A DNA stretch of 64,000 bases from Anaerorudis cellulosivorans (GTDB lineage: Bacteria; Bacteroidota; Bacteroidia; Bacteroidales; Dysgonomonadaceae): contig NZ_JAPCWE010000002.1 in the NCBI RefSeq assembly GCF_025943985.1, forward strand, positions 124,001 through 188,000, given 5' to 3'. Positions 1-9,851 of the stretch are shown one piece after another. Made by a program: the position numbers and the translations under genes. The notes beneath the pieces were generated by a model. That model saw only the letters and a program-made list of their open reading frames with translations, was not told where the DNA came from and made no database searches. Position 1 is the first letter of the stretch, and each line of letters begins with the position of its first letter.

Positions 1-1
1 G

Positions 2-1387
2 GTACAAAAATTACATTTGGTACCCATCGAGAGAAGGCTTAAAGCGTTGGAAGAGGGTGGATTCAACACCTTCCGGCTCACCACCAAGGATGTTTTCCTG
101 GACATGTTGACCGACAGTGGAACCAATGCAATGAGCGATAACCAGATAGCCGCAATGATGCAGGCTGACGATGCTTACGCAGGATCGCAAAGTTTTTTCA
201 AGCTGCAAAAGGCCGTTGAAGATGTTCTCGGCAAAAAATATTTTCTGCCGGTTCACCAGGGCAGGGCTGCCGAGAATATTCTCTGCCATGCTTACATTCG
301 CAAGGGAAACCTTATTCCCATGAATTATCATTTTACAACAACCATGGCGCACATTACGCAATACGGGGGAAGGGTTACCGAATTGTTGTACGACGAAGGC
401 TTCAACGTAGATTCGGATTACCCTTTTAAGGGAAATATGCATATCGAGAAGTTGGAGGAGACCATAAAAACCCATGGAGCCGAAAATATCCCGTTCATTC
501 GCGTGGAGGCTTCTACCAACCTGATTGGAGGCCAACCGTTCTCCATCCAAAACTTGAGAGAAGTAAGGGCTATTGCCGACAAATATAACATTCGACTTGT
601 GCTGGATGCGAGTTTGTTGGGCGAAAATGCCTATCTGATCCATCTTCGTGAAGAGGAGTTTAAAAATTGTTCTCTCGGGGAGATCATCAAAACAATGACC
701 GATTTGGCCGATATCGTTTACTTTTCTGCCCGAAAATTAAGCTCTTCACGAGGTGGAGGAATATGTACAAATGACCATGAGATCTACCGTGAACTGGAAC
801 CACTTATACCGCTTTTCGAGGGATTTCTTACCTATGGAGGAATTTCCGTACGTGAGATCGAAGCCATGGCTGTGGGGTTATATGAAACCCTCGATGAAAC
901 GATGATTCGTCAAAGTCCCGATTTCATCGCTTATCTTGTTAAATCCCTCGATGACCATGGTGTGCCTATGGTTAAACCCGCGGGTGTGTTGGGCGCACAC
1001 GTTAATGCGATGGAGATATGCAAACATATCCCGCAAAACGAATATCCGGCCGGTGCACTTGCTGCTGCGCTGTTTCTGGTTTCGGGAATAAGGGGAATGG
1101 AAAGGGGTACGCTTTCGAATCAGCGGGATGAGGATGGTAATGAAACCCTTGCCAATATGGAGCTGGTGCGGCTGGCTGTTCCGCGACGCGTATTTACGCT
1201 TTCGCAAATTAAATATGTTGTTGACCGGATGACTTGGCTGTATGAAAACCGGGAGCTTATCGGTGGATTACGCTTTGTATATGAACCTCCTGTACTTCGC
1301 TTCTTTATGGGTGGCCTGGAGCCTGTGAGCGATTGGCCGCAAAAGCTTATGGCAAAATTTAAAGCGGATTTCGGGGATAGCTTATAA
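2..1387 (+). CDS. Tryptophanase / tyrosine phenol-lyase family protein, 5' end outside window, divergent active site
   Basis: PLP-dependent beta-eliminating lyase that would split an aromatic amino acid into aromatic product, pyruvate and ammonia. The reading frame is open to the left edge. The TTG at 17 is probably internal, because residues before it continue the family's usual N-terminus. Family landmarks are present: HQGRAAEN, FTTT, LTDSGT, TYGG, and the C-terminal VRLAVPRRVFT and YEPPVLRFF. The Lys expected to bind PLP is in SARKLSSS (codon 734-736). Three departures from canonical enzymes, judged against family sequences I remember: the Arg after Asp in the usual D-[AS]-[TA]-R motif is Leu (codon 614-616), the Lys before the PLP Lys is Arg, and the following Asp is Leu. 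The MERG motif (1097-1108) resembles tyrosine phenol-lyase rather than tryptophanase. Family membership is secure; substrate is not. Confidence 0.85.
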   Translation, partial: VQKLHLVPIERRLKALEEGGFNTFRLTTKDVFLDMLTDSGTNAMSDNQIAAMMQADDAYAGSQSFFKLQKAVEDVLGKKYFLPVHQGRAAENILCHAYIRKGNLIPMNYHFTTTMAHITQYGGRVTELLYDEGFNVDSDYPFKGNMHIEKLEETIKTHGAENIPFIRVEASTNLIGGQPFSIQNLREVRAIADKYNIRLVLDASLLGENAYLIHLREEEFKNCSLGEIIKTMTDLADIVYFSARKLSSSRGGGICTNDHEIYRELEPLIPLFEGFLTYGGISVREIEAMAVGLYETLDETMIRQSPDFIAYLVKSLDDHGVPMVKPAGVLGAHVNAMEICKHIPQNEYPAGALAAALFLVSGIRGMERGTLSNQRDEDGNETLANMELVRLAVPRRVFTLSQIKYVVDRMTWLYENRELIGGLRFVYEPPVLRFFMGGLEPVSDWPQKLMAKFKADFGDSL

Positions 1388-1506
1388 ATTTCATCGGGGA
1401 AGGGGATAATTATTGGCGTGGCGTAGCAATGACAGGATACATGGCAAATGATCCCTTATTAAATAAAAATAACAACCTATTCTGCATAAATATGGCAAAA
1501 TATTTA

Positions 1507-1514
1507 TAGCTTTG
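1507..1514 (+). promoter_or_regulatory. Bacteroidota-type -7 promoter box
   Basis: TAGCTTTG matches the TAnnTTTG consensus of the primary sigma factor in this phylum and lies about 50 bases before the start codon at 1565. It would drive the five-gene cluster that follows. The 177-base gap has no recognisable cobalamin or TPP riboswitch motif. Confidence 0.55.
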
Positions 1515-1564
1515 TTTATCGACAAAAGAGAAAATCAAAAATAATTCCATTAAAACGTATCCCT

Positions 1565-2077
1565 ATGGAAACAACAAAACTTTATTCGCTTAACCTCAGC
1601 AATATAAAGACCTATCTTTTTGCGGGGCTTTTCCTGTTGGGAAATTTGCTTCTACCGCAATTGGCACACCTCGTTCCCAACGGCGGATTGATCTTCCTTC
1701 CCATCTATTTCTTCACGCTGATTGCCGCGTATAAATACGGTATGTATGTAGGATTGCTTACCGCCGTTTTATCGCCGCTGGCCAACAGTTTGCTATTCGG
1801 CATGCCTGTCGCTGCCATGCTTCCGGCTATCATGACAAAGTCGGTTATCCTGGCCATTGCAGCCGCACTGGCAGCAAAACATTTCGGCAAAATATCGATA
1901 GTGGGAATCCTGTTGGCCATTCTTGCTTATCAGGTTATCGGTACGGGACTGGAATGGGCCATGACGGGGAGCTTTTTTGTTGCCGTGCAGGATTTCAGGA
2001 TGGGTGTTCCGGGCATGCTGATTCAGCTTTTCGGCGGCTATGCTGTATTGAAAGCGTTGGCTAAAGCCAAAGCATAA
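1565..2077 (+). CDS. Membrane protein resembling an ECF transporter S component
   Basis: Hydrophobic 170-residue protein with about five to six predicted membrane segments, short loops and a basic C-terminus ending KALAKAKA. Size and hydrophobic pattern fit the substrate-binding S component of energy-coupling factor vitamin transporters, which capture a small molecule at the inner membrane and share ATPase and T subunits with other S components. No EcfA or EcfT gene is visible in the window, so a shared module elsewhere would be needed. It opens a cluster whose next gene, a phosphoribosyltransferase, begins nine bases after its stop. The family assignment rests on general appearance and I cannot name the ligand. 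Confidence 0.6.
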   Translation: METTKLYSLNLSNIKTYLFAGLFLLGNLLLPQLAHLVPNGGLIFLPIYFFTLIAAYKYGMYVGLLTAVLSPLANSLLFGMPVAAMLPAIMTKSVILAIAAALAAKHFGKISIVGILLAILAYQVIGTGLEWAMTGSFFVAVQDFRMGVPGMLIQLFGGYAVLKALAKAKA

Positions 2078-2086
2078 CCACGCCAC

Positions 2087-2488
2087 ATGCCGGTAGAAAA
2101 GTCATTTGAAGAAATATTACAGCGGTTTCGCGAAATCGAATTTCACGAAACGTTCGATATGATTGTTGCCATAGCCAATGGGGGAATCATCCCGGCCGCT
2201 ATCCTCAATCAGCTATTGAATATCGACATTCAACTGTTGAAAATCAACCTCCGCGATCCCCAACAGAAGCCGAAATACGATCGGCCGAAACTTGTTTCGC
2301 CTATCGATTTCGAATACCAAGGAAAAAAAATTCTTTTGGTGGAAGATCGCATCAAAACAGGGGCGACTGTACAATTCGCCATCGATCTTTTACATGATGC
2401 CGGGCAAATAAAAACCTTTGCGGTAAACGGAAAGGCCGATTATTCGCTATATGACGAACCCTGTTTCAGATTTCCATGGTTGCTGTAA
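2087..2488 (+). CDS. Small phosphoribosyltransferase-domain protein
   Basis: 133-residue type I phosphoribosyltransferase fold. The PRPP-binding motif VEDRIKTGAT (residues 85-94) follows the hydrophobic strand KILLV, as in the hypoxanthine/xanthine-guanine transferases, which also have Glu-Asp. IVAIANGGIIPA (26-37) fits the first phosphate-binding loop. It would transfer phosphoribose from PRPP to a base-like acceptor in the cytoplasm. It is shorter than housekeeping purine transferases and lacks a clear hood, so the acceptor is unknown. The last 13 bases overlap the start of the TonB receptor gene, which suggests translational coupling. Next to a putative S component, it could trap an imported compound by phosphoribosylation; that is inference. 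Confidence 0.75.
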   Translation: MPVEKSFEEILQRFREIEFHETFDMIVAIANGGIIPAAILNQLLNIDIQLLKINLRDPQQKPKYDRPKLVSPIDFEYQGKKILLVEDRIKTGATVQFAIDLLHDAGQIKTFAVNGKADYSLYDEPCFRFPWLL

Positions 2489-4362
2489 AAAAAATCGCGC
2501 TATACATAGGTATCTGTTTGGGGGCAGTTGTTCCGCTTTTTGCCGATGAGAATAATGTAACCGATACGATCCGGCTGGAAGAAGTGGTGGTAACGGCCAC
2601 CATGACCAAGGTGAACCTGCGAAACGTTCCCATGAGTGTTTCCGTGGTATCGGCAGCAGAAATCGAAAACCGGCTGCAGCCTTCGCTGCTGCCCTTGCTT
2701 GCCGAGGAAGTTCCCGGACTTTTTATCTCGCAACGGGGAGTGATGGGGTACGGCGTGGCAGAAGGTGCGGCGGGAAGCATGAACATCCGGGGAATCGGCG
2801 GAGCACCCACGACGGGTGTATTGATCCTGATCGACGGTAATCCGCAATATATGGGACTGATGGGGCATCCGCTTGCCGACAGCTATCAATCGATGATGAC
2901 CGAACGGGTTGAGGTGGTGCGCGGTCCTGCTTCGGTGCTCTACGGTTCCAATGCAATGGGAGGTGTGATCAACATCATTACCAAAAAACAGCGGGAAGAC
3001 GGTTGGCATCATTCCGTTCAAACCCAATACGGAAGTTACCAAACGCTTTCGGCCGAACTGTCGAGCGGATGGAAAAAGAACCGATTTCACGCCAATGCCA
3101 ATGTCGGGTACAATCGTTCCGACGGACATCGCAAAAACATGGATGTTGAGCAATGGAGCGGTTATGGAAAAGCGGGATACGACTTTTCGACGAATTGGTC
3201 ATCGTTCATCGATCTGAATATCTCGAACACCAACGCATCGAATCCCGGAACGCTTTCTTCGCCCATCAACGACAACGATGCCGATATTACGAGAGGAATG
3301 ACCTCGCTGGTTGTTGAAAATGCATACGATCGCACATCGGGCAGCTTGAAATTTTTCTATAATTTCGGTTCGCACACCATCGACGACGGCTATGCCGCCG
3401 GAGCGGAGCCAAAAACGTATCGGTTTCGTTCAACCGATCATATGTTGGGGTTTACGGTTGCTCAATCGTATGTTTTCTTCCCCGGCAACACTACTACGGC
3501 AGGTTTCGACTACAAACGATTGGGAGGGAAAGCGTGGAACCGGTATCTTGACGATACCCCCGATGTGCCGCTGGCCGATATCCGCCTAAACACGGTTGCC
3601 GGTTATGTGAATGTACAGCAACAGGTTTTAGACAACCGCCTGACACTCAACGCCGGCATCCGCCGGGATCATCACGAGATCAACGGTTGGGAATGGATTC
3701 CGCAAGCCGGTGTAAGTTTCACGGCTTCGGCTACCACGGTGTTGAAAGCCATCGTCAGCAAAGGATACCGAAATCCCACGATTCGTGAGATGTACATGTT
3801 TCCGCCACAGAACCCCGATCTCAAGCCCGAACGGCTTGTCAATTACGAAATATCGGTGTTGCAGACCTTGTTAAACAACAAAATCAATATGGGATTGAAC
3901 GTGTATTACATCGAAGGGGACAACCTGATACAGGTGGAACCGGTGAACGGAAAGCCGCGGAATGTCAATACCGGAAAAATCGAAAATAAAGGGATGGAAA
4001 TCACCGCAAGTTATCAGGCAACAAATCATCTCCGGTTCTCGGCCAATTACAGTTTGCTGGACATGACCTACAAAATACGTATGGCACCCGAACACAAGCT
4101 CTACATCAGCGGAAACTATACCAAAAACCGATGGAGCATTGCATCCGGGATCCAATACATCGGGAATCTGTACACGCAAACGTCACCCCAACCGGTAAAA
4201 GAAAGTTTCACCTTGTGGAATGCCCGAATCAACTATCGGGTTTTAAACGACTTGACTTTCTTTTTGAGAGGCGAAAATTTGCTCGGAGAATCCTACGAAA
4301 TCATGGCAGGATACCCCATGCCCGGTACAACCGTATTTGGAGGTGTCCGGCTGAATTTTTAA
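2476..4362 (+). CDS. TonB-dependent outer-membrane receptor
   Basis: 628 residues with a signal peptide (about 1-23, ending near FADENN), a TonB-box-like stretch LEEVVVTATMTKV (about 35-47), a plug domain containing MNIRGIGG and VEVVRGPASVLYGSNAMGGVINI, and a 22-strand-type barrel ending in the aromatic GGVRLNF. It has no STN or carboxypeptidase-regulatory domain and is much shorter than SusC, so it belongs with the BtuB/FepA-like receptors that import cobamides, metal chelates or other scarce small ligands using TonB-ExbBD energy. The start overlaps the phosphoribosyltransferase gene by 13 bases. The cargo is unknown; a compound later handled by the neighbouring inner-membrane, redox and phosphoribosyl functions is the simplest idea. 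Confidence 0.92.
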   Translation: MVAVKKIALYIGICLGAVVPLFADENNVTDTIRLEEVVVTATMTKVNLRNVPMSVSVVSAAEIENRLQPSLLPLLAEEVPGLFISQRGVMGYGVAEGAAGSMNIRGIGGAPTTGVLILIDGNPQYMGLMGHPLADSYQSMMTERVEVVRGPASVLYGSNAMGGVINIITKKQREDGWHHSVQTQYGSYQTLSAELSSGWKKNRFHANANVGYNRSDGHRKNMDVEQWSGYGKAGYDFSTNWSSFIDLNISNTNASNPGTLSSPINDNDADITRGMTSLVVENAYDRTSGSLKFFYNFGSHTIDDGYAAGAEPKTYRFRSTDHMLGFTVAQSYVFFPGNTTTAGFDYKRLGGKAWNRYLDDTPDVPLADIRLNTVAGYVNVQQQVLDNRLTLNAGIRRDHHEINGWEWIPQAGVSFTASATTVLKAIVSKGYRNPTIREMYMFPPQNPDLKPERLVNYEISVLQTLLNNKINMGLNVYYIEGDNLIQVEPVNGKPRNVNTGKIENKGMEITASYQATNHLRFSANYSLLDMTYKIRMAPEHKLYISGNYTKNRWSIASGIQYIGNLYTQTSPQPVKESFTLWNARINYRVLNDLTFFLRGENLLGESYEIMAGYPMPGTTVFGGVRLNF

Positions 4363-4414
4363 ACAAAGAACACTACTTTATTCGTAAATTATTTTATTAT
4401 TAATCGATACAACT

Positions 4415-5353
4415 ATGGATAGACGAAATTTTCTAAAAGCCATAGCACTGAGCGGCGCAACCTTGACCACCATTAAGGATGCGGAAGCGATGAGCATTCT
4501 CACGCAATCTTTCCAAACAACCCAGGCAGCCAAATACGATTTGGTAGCCGTGATGGGAGGCGAACCGGAAGTGATGTTCCGCAAAGCCATCACCGAAATG
4601 GGAGGAATGAAAAACTTCATAAACAAAGGCGACAAAGTATGCGTAAAACCCAATATCGGATGGGATCAACCTCCCGAAATGGGAGCCGATACCAACCCCA
4701 AACTTGTAGCCGAAATCATCAAACAATGTTTCGATGCAGGAGCAAGAGAGGTTGTCGTGTTTGATCATCCATGCGACGAGTGGCGCAGATGTTATACCAA
4801 CAGCGGCATAGAAGCAGCCGCTAAAGCTGCAGGGGCCAAAGTGGTGCCCGCCCATCAGGAATCGTATTACAAGGAAGTTTCCGTTCCGAAAGGGAAAAAC
4901 CTGAAGTCGGCAAAAATTCACGAAGCCATTGTGGACAGTGACAAATGGATCAATGTTCCCTGTCTGAAGAATCATGGTGGCGCACAACTCACTATTTCCA
5001 TGAAAAATTATATGGGAATTGTGTGGGATAGGGGTTATTTCCATGCTCACGATTTGCAGCAATGTATTGCCGATATCTGTGCATACGAAAAACGACCCGT
5101 GTTGAACGTGGTAGATGCCTACCGAATCATGAAGACCAATGGACCGAGAGGAAAATCGCCTTCGGATGTGGTACTCGCCAAAGGGCTTTTCATATCGCAA
5201 GATATCGTTGCCGTAGATACGGCTGCCGCCAATTTCTTCAACCAGGTTCGCGAAATGCCGATTGAAAAAGTCAAACACATTGCCAATGCTCAGGCGCTGG
5301 GATTGGGAACGATGAACCTCGACAGTCTGAAAATCAAAAGAATCAAGATATAA
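4415..5353 (+). CDS. DUF362 protein with twin-arginine signal
   Basis: 312 residues. The N-terminus MDRRNFLKAIALSGATL carries a twin-arginine motif (RRNFLK) followed by a hydrophobic stretch, so export in folded, cofactor-loaded form is likely. The body matches the DUF362 family: VCVKPNIGWD, VVVFDHPCDEW, INVPCLKNHGGAQLTISMKN and the terminal AQALGLG region. DUF362 proteins are often encoded beside 4Fe-4S ferredoxins and their reaction is undefined. Conserved Cys residues in DHPCDEW and VPCLKNH could bind metal. The polyferredoxin gene starts ten bases downstream and is the likely electron partner. Confidence is high for family and signal, low for activity. Confidence 0.88.
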   Translation: MDRRNFLKAIALSGATLTTIKDAEAMSILTQSFQTTQAAKYDLVAVMGGEPEVMFRKAITEMGGMKNFINKGDKVCVKPNIGWDQPPEMGADTNPKLVAEIIKQCFDAGAREVVVFDHPCDEWRRCYTNSGIEAAAKAAGAKVVPAHQESYYKEVSVPKGKNLKSAKIHEAIVDSDKWINVPCLKNHGGAQLTISMKNYMGIVWDRGYFHAHDLQQCIADICAYEKRPVLNVVDAYRIMKTNGPRGKSPSDVVLAKGLFISQDIVAVDTAAANFFNQVREMPIEKVKHIANAQALGLGTMNLDSLKIKRIKI

Positions 5354-5363
5354 ATAAGAGGGC

Positions 5364-6917
5364 ATGATGCTGAAAAAAATCCGGGTTATCGTATCTCTCG
5401 TGTTAGTTTCGCTGATTACCCTTTATTTCCTCGATTTCAGGGGATTTCTGCCTCAGCGTTTCAGCTTCCTGGCCGAGATACAATTTATCCCTGCCGTATT
5501 GGCACTCAATGTGGGCATCATCGTTGCACTGGTGATGCTTACGCTGATATTCGGGCGGATCTATTGTTCCTCTGTTTGTCCAATGGGAATATACCAGGAC
5601 GTGGTGGCAGGGTTGTCGAAAAAATTCACGAAAAAGAAACGATACACCTACAGTAAAGCCAAAACCGTGCTCCGTTGGAGTGTATTGGCTGCCGTAGTGA
5701 TTACTTTTCTTTTCGGCTTTACCTTCCTGCTTGGCTTACTCGACCCCTATGGAGCCTACGGACGAATGGTTACCCATCTTTTCCGCCCGGCCTATCTGGC
5801 GGGAAACAATGTACTCGAAGCTATATTTACCTCCTTCGGCAACTATACCTTCTATAAAGTTGCGATATACGGATTGGGGCTGTTTTCCACGATTATTGCA
5901 CTTATCACCTTAGCGGGAATCGGCCTTCTGGCGTGGCGCAACGGCCGAACCTATTGCAATACCCTCTGTCCTGTAGGAACTGTTCTGGGTTTTTTGAGCA
6001 GATTCTCATTCTTTAAAATACAATTTAAAGACGACAAATGCAACTCGTGCGGTCTGTGCACCATGAAATGCAAAGCATCGTGTTTGGATGCCAAAAACAA
6101 AAAAATAGATTACAGTCGCTGCGTCACCTGTTTCAACTGCATAGAAAGTTGCAATCGCGATGCCATAAAGTACGCTCCCGTTCTCCCGCGCAGGAAAAGA
6201 ATAGTGAATCCTATGCCGGCATATTCGTACGACAAACCCGCCAAATCGGTCGATTCATCCAAAAGACGGTTTCTTTCGGCAACAGTGTTAACCGCCATTG
6301 CCGCAGGTAATCTGATTGCTCAGGAAACAGCAGGCAAGCTGCTTCCCAAAAAAGAGCTCAAACGTCAAACACCGATTGCTCCTCCGGGTGCTATCGATTT
6401 CGATCACTTGCGGGAAAAATGCATATCCTGTCATCTGTGCGTAAGCAAATGTCCATCGCACGTCATAAAACCGGCATTTTTGGAATACGGCTTAGGCGGG
6501 ATGATGCAGCCGCTTTTGTATTTCGATCACGGCTTCTGCAATTACGATTGCACGATTTGCGGCGATGTATGCCCTACCGGCGCACTCAAACCGTTGACTG
6601 TTGAGGAAAAACACCAAACCCAAATGGGTCAGGTGCATTTCATTCTCGAAAACTGCATCGTTTATTACGATGAGACAAGTTGCGGTGCCTGCTCCGAACA
6701 TTGTCCGACGCAAGCCGTGAGTATGGTGCCTTACAAAGGTGCGCTCACCATACCACATATCGAACCCTCTATTTGCGTAGGTTGCGGCGGATGCGAATCA
6801 ATCTGCCCGGCTATTCCGTATAAGGCTATTTATGTGGAAGGACTGGAAACGCAAAACAGAATCGAGATCAAAGAAGAAAAAGCGGAAGAAATCGAAATCG
6901 AAGGCTTCGGCTTCTAA
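5364..6917 (+). CDS. Membrane polyferredoxin: NapH-like module joined to a Tat-type ferredoxin module
   Basis: 517 residues in two parts. Part one (about 1-275) has membrane helices and the paired CxxxCP motifs of the NapH/MauN/RdxA family (C68/C72 and C198/C202), then two 4Fe-4S motifs (C226-C236 and C253-C263). Part two begins with an internal twin-arginine sequence, SSKRRFLSAT (298-307), and a hydrophobic run, followed by four further cysteine clusters near 353-363, 392-403, 431-447 and 471-481, an arrangement like NapG. A quinol-to-periplasm electron path through one polypeptide is the natural reading. The C-terminus is acidic (EIKEEKAEEIEIEGFGF). It ends the cluster and is probably the electron source for the DUF362 protein. 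Family is sure; partner and acceptor are inferred. Confidence 0.88.
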   Translation: MMLKKIRVIVSLVLVSLITLYFLDFRGFLPQRFSFLAEIQFIPAVLALNVGIIVALVMLTLIFGRIYCSSVCPMGIYQDVVAGLSKKFTKKKRYTYSKAKTVLRWSVLAAVVITFLFGFTFLLGLLDPYGAYGRMVTHLFRPAYLAGNNVLEAIFTSFGNYTFYKVAIYGLGLFSTIIALITLAGIGLLAWRNGRTYCNTLCPVGTVLGFLSRFSFFKIQFKDDKCNSCGLCTMKCKASCLDAKNKKIDYSRCVTCFNCIESCNRDAIKYAPVLPRRKRIVNPMPAYSYDKPAKSVDSSKRRFLSATVLTAIAAGNLIAQETAGKLLPKKELKRQTPIAPPGAIDFDHLREKCISCHLCVSKCPSHVIKPAFLEYGLGGMMQPLLYFDHGFCNYDCTICGDVCPTGALKPLTVEEKHQTQMGQVHFILENCIVYYDETSCGACSEHCPTQAVSMVPYKGALTIPHIEPSICVGCGGCESICPAIPYKAIYVEGLETQNRIEIKEEKAEEIEIEGFGF

Positions 6918-6967
6918 CTCGGAATTCATCGAAAGAAGGATTCATAGAGACCAATTGAACCCGTTTG

Positions 6968-7048
6968 AGGCAAACGAGACAAAAAGCGGTGTATCACATT
7001 GTAATAAGGCAAACGACACAAAAGGAGGCTGCATCAATATAAAAAATA
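6968..7048. repeat. Two imperfect tandem units of about 40 bp
   Basis: Both units begin AGGCAAACGA(G/C)ACAAAA (at 6968 and 7007) and continue with related GGTGTATCAC- and GGCTGCATCA-like cores. The first core, at 6988-7002, is an exact 15-base inverted match to 7116-7130 in the adjacent palindromic element. They sit in the convergent gap between the polyferredoxin and isocitrate dehydrogenase genes. Confidence 0.6.
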
Positions 7049-7066
7049 AGCCGCCGAGAATTAAAT

Positions 7067-7140
7067 TTTGAAATTGTCCTCTGATAAGGAGTACAAATGC
7101 AAAGAGGGCAAAAACACAATGTGATACACCCTCTTTTTAA
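7067..7140 (-). terminator. Palindromic intergenic element, copy A (likely bidirectional terminator)
   Basis: On the minus strand this begins AAAAAGAGGGTGTATCACA and folds back on CCCTCTTT, then carries a tail TTTGCATTTGTACTCC...GACAATTTCAA. The same sequence recurs, about 80% identical by eye, at 39825-39896, and the hairpin part recurs at 47162-47202. It lies between two genes whose 3' ends face each other. Runs of A and T flank the stem, as expected for termination in both directions. Confidence 0.65.
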
Positions 7141-7165
7141 ATCGTTTAACGATCTTGTGCGGAAT

Positions 7166-8389
7166 TTATTCCAATTTCTTTTCAAGGTTGATTTTCAGCG
7201 TATTCAAAAACTCTTGCGTATTCAGATAGTTATCACGGGTCAACCGGTTACCGTAAACCAGCAAGGCAAGATCCTTGGTCATTTTCCCGCTTTCGACGGT
7301 TTCGATGCAGACGCGTTCCAATTTTTCACAAAAATCGATCAATGCCGGATTATTATCGAGTTTGCCGCGATGAGCCAACCCGCGCGTCCATGCAAAAATA
7401 GAAGCAATGGGATTGGTTGAAGTTTCTTTTCCCTGTTGGTATAAACGGTAATGACGGGTTACCGTGCCGTGAGCAGCCTCTGCTTCCACCGTTCTGCCGT
7501 CGGGTGTTATCAACACGGAAGACATCATACCCAGCGAACCGAAACCTTGAGCTACGGCATCCGACTGCACATCGCCATCGTAATTCTTACATGCCCACAC
7601 AAATCCGCCATTCCATTTAAGCGACGAAGCCACCATATCGTCAATCAAGCGGTGCTCGTAGGTTATGCCCGCTTTCTCGAACGCGTTTTTGAATTCTTTT
7701 TCGTAAACTTCTTGAAAAATATCCTTGAATCGTCCGTCATACGCTTTGAGAATGGTGTTTTTGGTGGAAAGATACAACGGGTATTTTTTGTTCAGTGCCA
7801 TTTGAAACGAAGAACGGGCAAACCCGTAGATCGATTCGTCGGTATTGTACATGGTCATAGCCACACCGTCGCCGTCGAAACGATACACTTCCCAGCTTTG
7901 CGTTTCGCCGTTGTCGGACGTAAAGGTCATGCTCAGTGTGCCTTTTCCCTTAATCACCTTATCGGTAGCCTTATATTGATCGCCAAATGCATGACGACCG
8001 ATCACGATAGGCTTTGTCCATCCCGGCACATACCGTGGGATATTGGAACATATGATGGGTTCGCGAAACACTGTTCCCCCGACGATATTCCGGATGGTTC
8101 CGTTGGGCGATTTCCACATCTTTTTTAATCCGAACTCCCTTACACGCGCTTCATCGGGAGTGATGGTGGCACATTTGATACCTACATTGTATTGCTTAAT
8201 CGCTTCGGCTGCCTCTATTGTTACCCGATCATCGGTTGCATCGCGATGCTGAATACTGAGATCAAAATATTTTATATTCAAATCGAGATAAGGCAAAATG
8301 AGCTGTTGCTTAATGAACGCCCAGATGATGCGCGCCATCTCGTCGCCATCCATTTCCACTACGGGATTTTCTACTTTAATTTTCTTCAT
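7166..8389 (-). CDS. icd: NADP-dependent isocitrate dehydrogenase, eukaryote-like subfamily
   Basis: 407 residues. Oxidatively decarboxylates isocitrate to 2-oxoglutarate in the cytoplasm. The sequence is of the homodimeric type common in eukaryotes and some bacteria: [12 protein letters not shown] at the N-terminus, [35 protein letters not shown] and [14 protein letters not shown], rather than the E. coli Icd type. It is the third gene of a minus-strand run after aconitase and citrate synthase, which together make 2-oxoglutarate from oxaloacetate and acetyl-CoA. The 73-base gap before it holds a direct repeat, CGGTCTTCTATAAA, at 8401-8414 and 8425-8438. Its 3' end faces the polyferredoxin gene across the palindromic element. 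Confidence 0.96.
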
Positions 8390-8400
8390 TCTATATTAAT

Positions 8401-8438
8401 CGGTCTTCTATAAACTATATCAAGCGGTCTTCTATAAA
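8401..8438. repeat. Direct repeat in the icd leader
   Basis: CGGTCTTCTATAAA occurs at 8401-8414 and 8425-8438, 24 bases apart start to start, between citrate synthase and isocitrate dehydrogenase. It is about two helical turns in pitch, so a regulator site is possible, but nothing else supports this. Confidence 0.4.
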
Positions 8439-8462
8439 AATAATCGCATTGCACCCTTACGT

Positions 8463-9851
8463 TTATCGCTCATGAATAGGAACATAAGGCTGTGTTTCGA
8501 GCACATTCTTATACGCCGGGCGGATAATACGTTTGCTGCTGAAATTCAATTCCTCGATGCGATGGGCACTCCAACCCACAATGCGGGCCATGGCAAACAA
8601 GGGGGTGAAAACTTCACTCGGCAAGCCGATAGCATCGTACACAAATCCCGAATAAAAATCCACGTTGACGCACACTTGTTTAGCGCTTTTTGCATGAGAC
8701 CCCTTATAATCCATAAATATCTTGACGGCACGCTCTTCGATACGTTTCATAAATTCGAATTCCTCCTCGCGATGCTTTTCTTTTGCCAGCTGTTCGGCCA
8801 TTTCTTTGAGCAACTGTGCACGGGGATCGCTAATGGTATATACTGCATGCCCAATGCCGTAAATCAATCCATTGCGATCGTACGCCTCTTTATTCAGGAT
8901 CTTCAGCAGATAAGCATCGATTTCGTCGGTATCTTTCCAATCGCTGATATTCTTCTTCATATCGTCGAGCATCCCTTTCACCTTGATATTAGCACCACCG
9001 TGCAATGGACCTTTCAACGAACCAATTCCGGCCGCGATAGCCGAATAGGTATCGGTTTCGGTAGAACTCACCACACGCACCGAAAAAGTAGAGTTGTTTC
9101 CTCCGCCGTGTTCGGCGTGAAGGATCAACGCCAAATCGAGTATTTTCACCTCCAGATCGGTATAAGCATCCTTTCCTTTCATCATGAAAAGAAAATTTTC
9201 GGCCACCGAACGATCTTCGTAAGGATGGCGGATATGCAGAGAGCGCGCCAACTGATTGTGTCGCAACACCTGATAAGCATAAGCAATGATGGTTGGAAAT
9301 TTTGCAATCAGATTGATGGATTGACGAATGAGATTGTCGGGAGAAATATCGTCGGGATTTTCGTCATACGTATACAATTCAAGAACGCTTCGCGCCAGAA
9401 TATTCATGATGTTTTTCCCTTGCAGAGAAAGAATATTCATGGTAGCTTTGTGTTCCAAGGGCATGGTTTTCATGATGATTTCACGAAAAGTTTCCAACTC
9501 GCTTTTGTTTGGAAGCACCCCGGATAGAATCAAATAGGCCGTTTCCTCGAATCCCGGCCGATTTTCTCGCTGAACCCCATGTACCAAGTCTTCCACATCC
9601 ATTCCCCGATAATACAACTTTCCCGGAATCGGTTTGAGTGTGCCGTCCGGCTGTTTCTCGTAGCCGACCACATCGCCGATACGGGTAAGGCCAACCAAAA
9701 CACCCGATCCGTCTTCATTGCGCAATCCACGCTTGACGTTCATTTGGGCGAACAATTCCTTATTGATATCGGTTGTCTTTTTTATAGATTCCGACAGTTT
9801 ATAAATCAAATATTTATCTTCTATGAAATTAATTCTTTCGTCGGTATTCAT
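8463..9851 (-). CDS. gltA: Citrate synthase
   Basis: 462 residues. Condenses oxaloacetate with acetyl-CoA to citrate. Active-site surroundings are clear: LILHAEHGGGNNSTF, GPLHGGAN, GIGHAVYTISDPRA and NVDFYSGFVYDAIGLP, which supply the expected catalytic His and Asp residues. The N-terminal extension and the length are typical of Bacteroidota enzymes. Lies 33 bases downstream of the aconitase gene in the same direction, so co-transcription is likely. A 2-methylcitrate synthase role is an alternative for this family, but the neighbours icd and acnA favour citrate. Confidence 0.94.
   Translation of the reverse strand: MNTDERINFIEDKYLIYKLSESIKKTTDINKELFAQMNVKRGLRNEDGSGVLVGLTRIGDVVGYEKQPDGTLKPIPGKLYYRGMDVEDLVHGVQRENRPGFEETAYLILSGVLPNKSELETFREIIMKTMPLEHKATMNILSLQGKNIMNILARSVLELYTYDENPDDISPDNLIRQSINLIAKFPTIIAYAYQVLRHNQLARSLHIRHPYEDRSVAENFLFMMKGKDAYTDLEVKILDLALILHAEHGGGNNSTFSVRVVSSTETDTYSAIAAGIGSLKGPLHGGANIKVKGMLDDMKKNISDWKDTDEIDAYLLKILNKEAYDRNGLIYGIGHAVYTISDPRAQLLKEMAEQLAKEKHREEEFEFMKRIEERAVKIFMDYKGSHAKSAKQVCVNVDFYSGFVYDAIGLPSEVFTPLFAMARIVGWSAHRIEELNFSSKRIIRPAYKNVLETQPYVPIHER

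Follow-up and report, generated by a model that had tools for sequence, protein, structure and literature searches.

What could bring an uptake system, a nucleotide-handling protein and periplasmic redox proteins together in one gene cluster? This question is raised by a 64,000-nucleotide stretch of the genome of the Bacteroidales bacterium Anaerorudis cellulosivorans (assembly GCF_025943985.1, contig NZ_JAPCWE010000002.1, positions 124,001 to 188,000 of the forward strand; hereafter the window, and its genome G000), in which positions 1565-6917 contain five open reading frames (ORFs), all on the + strand and arranged head to tail. They code, in this order, for a putative S component of the energy-coupling factor (ECF) type (S), a phosphoribosyltransferase-fold protein (PRT), a TonB-dependent receptor, a DUF362 protein with a twin-arginine translocation (Tat) signal, and a fused NapH- and NapG-like polyferredoxin (NapHG). 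An earlier note on this DNA had named these families, with gaps of 9, -13, 52 and 10 bp between the genes, all of which was confirmed. It had further proposed a single path in which an imported compound is reduced in the periplasm, then taken up and trapped by phosphoribosylation.

The explanation preferred here, to which we give a probability of about 0.35, is that the DUF362 protein may be an exported enzyme using the nickel-pincer nucleotide (NPN) and fed by the polyferredoxin, and that the receptor, S and PRT would salvage this cofactor or its base.

Linkage of the DUF362 gene to larC and larB

Genomes were surveyed in three sets, namely 61 relatives, 392 genomes of the order and 392 of the phylum. 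A search for LarC first placed larC beside DUF362 and NapHG in two genomes lacking S. Over the order, larC was found in 44 genomes, the Tat-signal DUF362 gene in 116 and both in 31; that is, DUF362 is present in 31 of the 44 larC genomes versus 85 of the 348 without a strong larC match (Fisher p 2.8e-9; Fisher tests take genomes as independent, which they are not). The larC count leaves out four genomes with weak PF01969 matches (G555, G634, G745, G790), and the DUF362 count was reduced from 118 matches by leaving out the weak G471 and G654, while the contig-end fragments G562 and G792 were kept. The two genes lie 130-419 bp apart in 16 of the 31 genomes, divergently in all 16 and over seven coded families, where about 0.03 such cases would be expected by chance. 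Fifteen of these 16 stretches were read: larB occurs in all of them (the copy at L200 being a fragment at a contig end) and larE, sought with a single-sequence query, in eight. At L338 and L342 larB directly follows NapHG on the same strand, and at L201 the genes adjoining DUF362-NapHG give 315 bits for LarB, 314 for LarE, and 212 and 156 for LarC, all over the NCBIfam cut-offs. Seven larC-linked DUF362 proteins that were aligned with that of the window share 50-56% identity with it and have the same twin-arginine start. It should be noted that this linkage to larB, larE and larC is found with orthologues only, and not in the genome of the window.

The DUF362 protein of the window matches PF04015 with 175 bits (cut-off 24), and K185 and H187 are invariant in 20 aligned orthologues. 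Its Tat signal scores 16.8 with TIGR01409 (cut-off 16.7) and 16.9 with Pfam TAT_signal, below the cut-off of 22.7. Both a twin-arginine start (Table 1) and TatC in G000 were found, although TatC says little, since 53 of the 61 relatives have it. According to PMC11770544, DUF362 and LarA (lactate racemase) belong to the same Pfam clan, CL0471, and PMC11796402 reports that about 15% of surveyed genomes have larB, larE and larC without larA, which was taken as a sign of other NPN proteins. Four exported DUF362 proteins of a second type, found in sister clusters, match Lar_N weakly, with at most 21.4 bits against a cut-off of 23.3.

NapHG accompanies DUF362 closely, adjoining it in all 70 stretches from genomes without S and larC and in 27 of 28 stretches from larC genomes, the exception (L333) ending at a contig end. 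Two NapHG relatives (G055:C30:4630-6153 and G060:C29:46071-47570) have matches that cross stop codons, and are perhaps decaying or mis-assembled.

Partners of DUF362 in other genomes: larC, c2 and S

No larC was found in any of the 47 order genomes with S (p 0.0025), nor in G000. The best LarB match in G000 reached 54 bits (cut-off 175) and those in four near-complete genomes with S and PRT 51-55 bits, which we take to be what PurE would give.

A second S-like gene, c2, codes for a membrane protein of 170 residues and stands beside DUF362 in 28 of the 70 genomes without S and strong larC, over 14 coded families. In 26 of these 28 it is divergent from DUF362 at 71-759 bp, which is the place of larC in other genomes; the frequency differs from that in the larC-genome stretches (28/70 vs 2/28, p 0.0013). 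No Pfam match over cut-off was obtained for c2 (4 of 13 rows tested). The proposal that S and c2 are homologous relies on two bridge proteins, L133 and L134, which match both the S profile (5.9e-12 and 9.2e-12) and the c2 profile (6.4e-10 and 7.2e-7, among 2362 ORFs); both had first been found by the S profile, and both match PF12822 over the cut-off.

A FastTree tree of 143 DUF362 proteins was labelled by partner, with larC counted when it lies within the stretch, so that larC on another contig appears as 'none' or 'c2'. The label changes 22 times, and well-supported branches force at least three changes for larC, four for c2 and three for S. The pattern of larC, c2 and S appears to be that of a cofactor which some lineages make and others take up.

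Conservation of the cluster and its two modules

The S protein occurs in 27 of the 61 relatives, in 47 genomes of the order and in six of the phylum (two of these six being only distant). A scan of public genomes for S confirmed 199 stretches, of which 80 were kept; the loci include Proteiniphilum, Petrimonas, Fermentimonas and many uncultured Bacteroidales. All five families stand together in 25 of the 80, and two relatives that can be cultured, Proteiniphilum acetatigenes (L039) and Petrimonas (L028), have the whole set of five genes. A further count covered 128 S loci, with some species represented twice and five loci without an S match (L133, L134, L190, L191, L192) left out; 91 of them have at least 4.5 kb on both sides. 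Among these 91, S is accompanied by PRT, receptor, DUF362 and NapHG in 20, and by PRT, DUF362 and NapHG in seven more. The five-family cluster is more than a product of chance. The neighbourhood of S is conserved within the order, reaching beyond close relatives, whereas restriction to these was what the earlier note would have taken as a refutation; beyond the order, S is rare.

Each of the 27 S-bearing relatives has exactly one cytosolic partner gene, PRT in 20 and DUF1893 in seven, never both; of the 34 S-less relatives, none has PRT and one has DUF1893 (weak PRT matches of 20-30 bits are left out of this count). Over the 128 S loci, PRT was found in 54 and DUF1893 in 56, both in none, and neither within 7 kb in 18; the strand of S is shared by 335 of 337 partner entries. 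PRT accompanies Tat-DUF362, and DUF1893 often accompanies an aldo/keto reductase with a twin-arginine start and 4Fe-4S domains, together with a secreted flavodoxin. In six loci DUF1893 is also accompanied by the second exported DUF362 type. Pairs without NapHG, receptor, DUF362 or aldo/keto reductase are also found, S-DUF1893 in 23 and S-PRT in six of the 91 loci, and an S-PRT pair without the other three families occurs at L197 of G005. Conversely, 101 of the 116 genomes with the Tat-DUF362 orthologue have no S. Fifteen genomes have both S and DUF362; in 12 the two are no more than 2.5 kb apart, and in G526, G647 and G793 they are far apart or on different contigs. The cluster therefore consists of two separable modules, one made of S and one cytosolic partner, the other of Tat-DUF362 and the NapH-NapG fusion.

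Some further genes recur near S. Genes resembling tatA and tatC lie directly behind it at L157, L161 and L195 (NCBIfam test on L161), and in G015, G020, G032 and G037 the sole tatC of the genome is 252-275 bp from S. One open frame covers both DUF1893 and the TonB receptor at L159:7779-10058(-) and L190:5218-7668(-), which may be a fusion or a missing stop. Many rumen and gut loci (L069-L092, L098) have S and DUF1893 beside a 408-residue protein behind GlnS; the L098 protein shows a weak likeness to the NPN-dependent ornithine cyclodeaminase TIGR00300 (18.9 bits, cut-off 410.8) and to the GSU2086 family (25.8 bits). A protein matching NF010184 (over cut-off at L043), presumably of the DUF1846 type, recurs behind NapHG or near S at L022, L041, L043, L058 and L168. 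Finally, on a Bacteroides finegoldii plasmid (L198, NZ_OY725888.1) the genes for NapHG, aldo/keto reductase, DUF1893 and S follow one another, S being annotated as 'hypothetical protein'.

Properties of the S, PRT, receptor and NapHG proteins

The S protein has no Pfam match of its own, and two close relatives match PF12822 only below the cut-off. Its AlphaFold model (mean predicted local distance difference test score 86.6) is predicted to have the S-component fold: the first 21 structure matches are all ECF S components or transition-metal and cobalt S proteins, with Z 9.9-14.5, where values up to about 13 can, as the tool warns, reflect mere likeness among helical bundles; the best Foldseek E was 0.009. 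Seven residues (H35, K57, N74, K92, E130, D143, Q154) are invariant in 50 aligned sequences. EcfT/CbiQ (PF02361) was absent from G000, where EcfA was not searched, and was found in one of the 27 S-bearing relatives (G047). A canonical ECF transporter was thus rejected for lack of EcfT, and S must either work without it or do something other than ECF transport. Queuosine was considered as a substrate, but the literature search gave no lead.

PRT matches PF00156 with 49.9 bits (cut-off 26.3) and has a type I PRT fold, nearest to the hypoxanthine-guanine-xanthine PRT of Sulfolobus (4zfn, 4z1o; Z 17.1, 26-27% identity). PRTs have a catalytic Asp in the loop that binds phosphoribosyl pyrophosphate. 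In all 54 PRT rows this position, which aligns with the Asp of 1vdm and 4trb, is occupied by Lys (K90 in the protein of the window), and the residue of the pyrophosphate loop is Asn. A normal purine PRT is unlikely. A Lys in this place would suit a carboxylated pyridine.

The receptor reaches 154 bits with the BtuB model TIGR01779 of NCBIfam, so far below the cut-off of 599.7 that a vitamin B12 receptor was rejected. The N half of the last protein matches NapH (TIGR02163, 80.9 bits vs 213) and its C half NapG (NF007012, 65.4 vs 269), both below cut-off. The membrane part bears CX3CP motifs; the protein as a whole has 29 Cys, four strongly hydrophobic stretches and four 4Fe-4S motifs of the form C-x2-C-x2-C-x3-C, with an internal KRRFLS between the NapH-like and NapG-like parts.

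Layout of the locus

Table 1. Features at the start of the window (positions in the window)
Feature	Position	Strand	Basis and remarks
Candidate -7 box TAnnTTTG	1507..1514	+	50 bp 5' of first start codon; weak
S: putative solitary ECF-type S component, 170 residues	1565..2077	+	predicted fold, alignment
PRT: 6-oxopurine-PRT-fold protein, 133 residues	2087..2488	+	PF00156, fold, K90 at catalytic-Asp position
TonB-dependent receptor, 628 residues	2476..4362	+	PF00593 and PF07715; 13 bp overlap with PRT
Tat-signal DUF362 protein, 312 residues	4415..5353	+	PF04015; start MDRRNFLK
NapH-NapG fusion, 517 residues	5364..6917	+	Fer4 families; NapH- and NapG-like halves

For the single promoter box of the earlier note there is a candidate, a match to the Bacteroides -7 motif. 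It is weak, however, because the motif occurs 61 times over both strands of the window. The proposed check for riboswitches was negative: no Rfam match was obtained in positions 1-9000 of the window at E 1, and three tRNAs were the sole matches in the 19 related loci searched (of 35 chosen). The gene upstream of the cluster (17-1387) belongs to the tryptophanase/tyrosine phenol-lyase family (NF009709, 581 bits, cut-off 285; three equivalog cut-offs missed) and has no counterpart next to S in any of the 80 public loci.

Discussion

As we envisage it, menaquinol would supply electrons to the NapH-NapG fusion, and this would pass them on to DUF362 on the periplasmic side. The DUF362 protein would be exported by Tat in a folded state because its cofactor is already bound. 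This cofactor would most probably be NPN or a close pyridinium relative. The genome seems unable to make NPN, so uptake of the cofactor, or of something derived from its breakdown, would begin with the TonB receptor in the outer membrane. From there the solitary S may move the cofactor or the free pyridine base through the inner membrane, after which PRT would rebuild or hold the mononucleotide. At its most far-reaching, the reading would be that bacteria unable to make NPN live by its salvage: receptor and S would import NPN or its pyridine base, and the PRT with its Lys, or else DUF1893, would restore the mononucleotide needed by a polyferredoxin-coupled Tat-DUF362 enzyme. We consider this rather less likely than not.

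Several observations weigh against the salvage of NPN for DUF362. In 42 of the 116 DUF362 genomes none of the three partners was found, S and strong larC being sought in the whole genome and c2 only next to DUF362; this number includes four genomes with a weak PF01969 match and two whose stretch is cut by a contig end. In addition, 32 of the 47 S genomes have no Tat-DUF362. Many S loci carry the twin-arginine aldo/keto reductase instead of DUF362; its link to NPN is unproven, and NPN does not explain this branch. The DUF362 protein of the window gave no Lar_N (PF09861) match up to E 0.1 and no match among solved structures, a profile including the second-type proteins reaching only an aldolase at E 0.79. 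The c2 gene also stands beside DUF362 in two of the 28 larC-genome stretches read, and a direct comparison of the S profile with that of c2 gave no match (hhalign probability 1.8). The exclusion between S and larC may be bound to a clade, the S label changing only four times on the DUF362 tree. Among the Lar proteins, whole-genome searches covered LarC across the order and LarB in five genomes. The estimate given at the outset is kept low because of the DUF362 genomes without a partner, the S genomes without DUF362, the unexplained reductase branch, the missing Lar_N, the possible clade effect and an ambiguity at L133. Here (L133:5534-8485), in a genome related to that of the window at the level of the phylum only, NikR, a TonB receptor of the type found in the cluster and an S-like protein stand in a row, an order that fits a nickel compound but also plain nickel.

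Indeed, the receptor and S could serve a nickel protein by bringing in Ni2+ or a nickel chelate, PRT being regulatory or nucleotide-sensing. The NikR row at L133 speaks for this, as do NikR near the lar genes in L203 and L213, the transition-metal and cobalt S proteins among the structure matches, and the invariant H35, E130 and D143 of S. Nickel import, however, should go with larC rather than exclude it, no relative of the L133 NikR turned up in the other S loci searched, and the co-occurrence of PRT with S in 20 of 20 relatives would have no clear role, so that we regard plain nickel uptake as distinctly improbable. Another possibility, close to the view of the earlier note, is that an unrelated compound, nucleobase-like or aromatic, is taken up and trapped, and perhaps also reduced by the periplasmic redox proteins. 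This would agree with the PRT fold, with the cytosolic partner in every S-bearing relative and with the sister clusters containing the reductase; it appears unlikely, considering that all PRT rows have Lys at the catalytic-Asp position and Asn in the pyrophosphate loop and that the linkage of DUF362-NapHG to larC and larB would be left unexplained.

The two modules might also be independent, a vitamin or base salvage pair (S-PRT) and an unrelated NPN unit (DUF362-NapHG) that share an operon by chance of descent. Each does occur alone, and the three genomes in which S and DUF362 are far apart fit such a view. Their proximity in the other 12 of 15, and the presence of c2, a distant S relative, beside DUF362 in other lineages, make mere coincidence rather improbable in our opinion.

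The overall interpretation of the earlier note is thus supported in part. Its S component and small phosphoribosyltransferase, as far as their folds go, and its Tat-signal DUF362 protein and NapH/NapG-like polyferredoxin were borne out by the structure and family matches, and there is also support for a lone S protein whose cytosolic partner could act as a substrate trap. The single linear path was not supported, since S-PRT and DUF362-NapHG each occur without the other module; given this separability, supply of a cofactor to a DUF362 enzyme suits the data at least as well as processing of a substrate.

No description of such a cluster was found in the available parts of the literature on DUF362 (also with NapH and TonB), DUF1893/TM1506 and solitary S components, and no NPN uptake or salvage route in those of the NPN papers PMC11770544, PMC7583248, PMC12611868 and PMC11796402. 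The exported DUF362 protein and its polyferredoxin, whose orthologues adjoin larC and larB in seven coded families, are a concrete candidate for an NPN protein. If NPN salvage is true, this would be, to our knowledge, the first salvage route for NPN and the first NPN enzyme outside the cytoplasm; DUF362 would gain a cofactor, and a transporter family would for the first time be named for NPN or its precursor. Both claims could be tested in the culturable Proteiniphilum acetatigenes and Petrimonas.

Comparison with known systems

The cluster resembles several known systems without coinciding with any of them. DUF362 shares a clan with LarA of the Lar system (LarA with LarB, LarE and LarC), and its orthologues lie beside larC, larB and often larE, but the DUF362 protein of the window is Tat-exported and paired with a polyferredoxin, its genome has no larC and no LarB over cut-off, and NPN is here our inference. 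Solitary S components of the BioY type are used without EcfT; the S protein is similar in its predicted fold and in a genome lacking EcfT/CbiQ, but it has no Pfam match, forms a family of its own and is linked with a PRT-fold protein and a TonB receptor. Vitamin B12 uptake, in which BtuB acts with S components such as CbrT, likewise combines a TonB receptor and an S component for one cofactor, whereas the receptor of the window is far below the BtuB cut-off and no cobalamin riboswitch was found in the stretches searched. PRT has the fold of the Sulfolobus enzyme, but is a protein of 133 residues with Lys for the catalytic Asp and Asn in the pyrophosphate loop. As for the NapH/NapG quinol dehydrogenase, its NapH-like membrane part and NapG-like Fe-S part are both recognizable in the last gene of the cluster, where they are fused, far below the cut-offs, and accompanied by neither NapA nor NapB.

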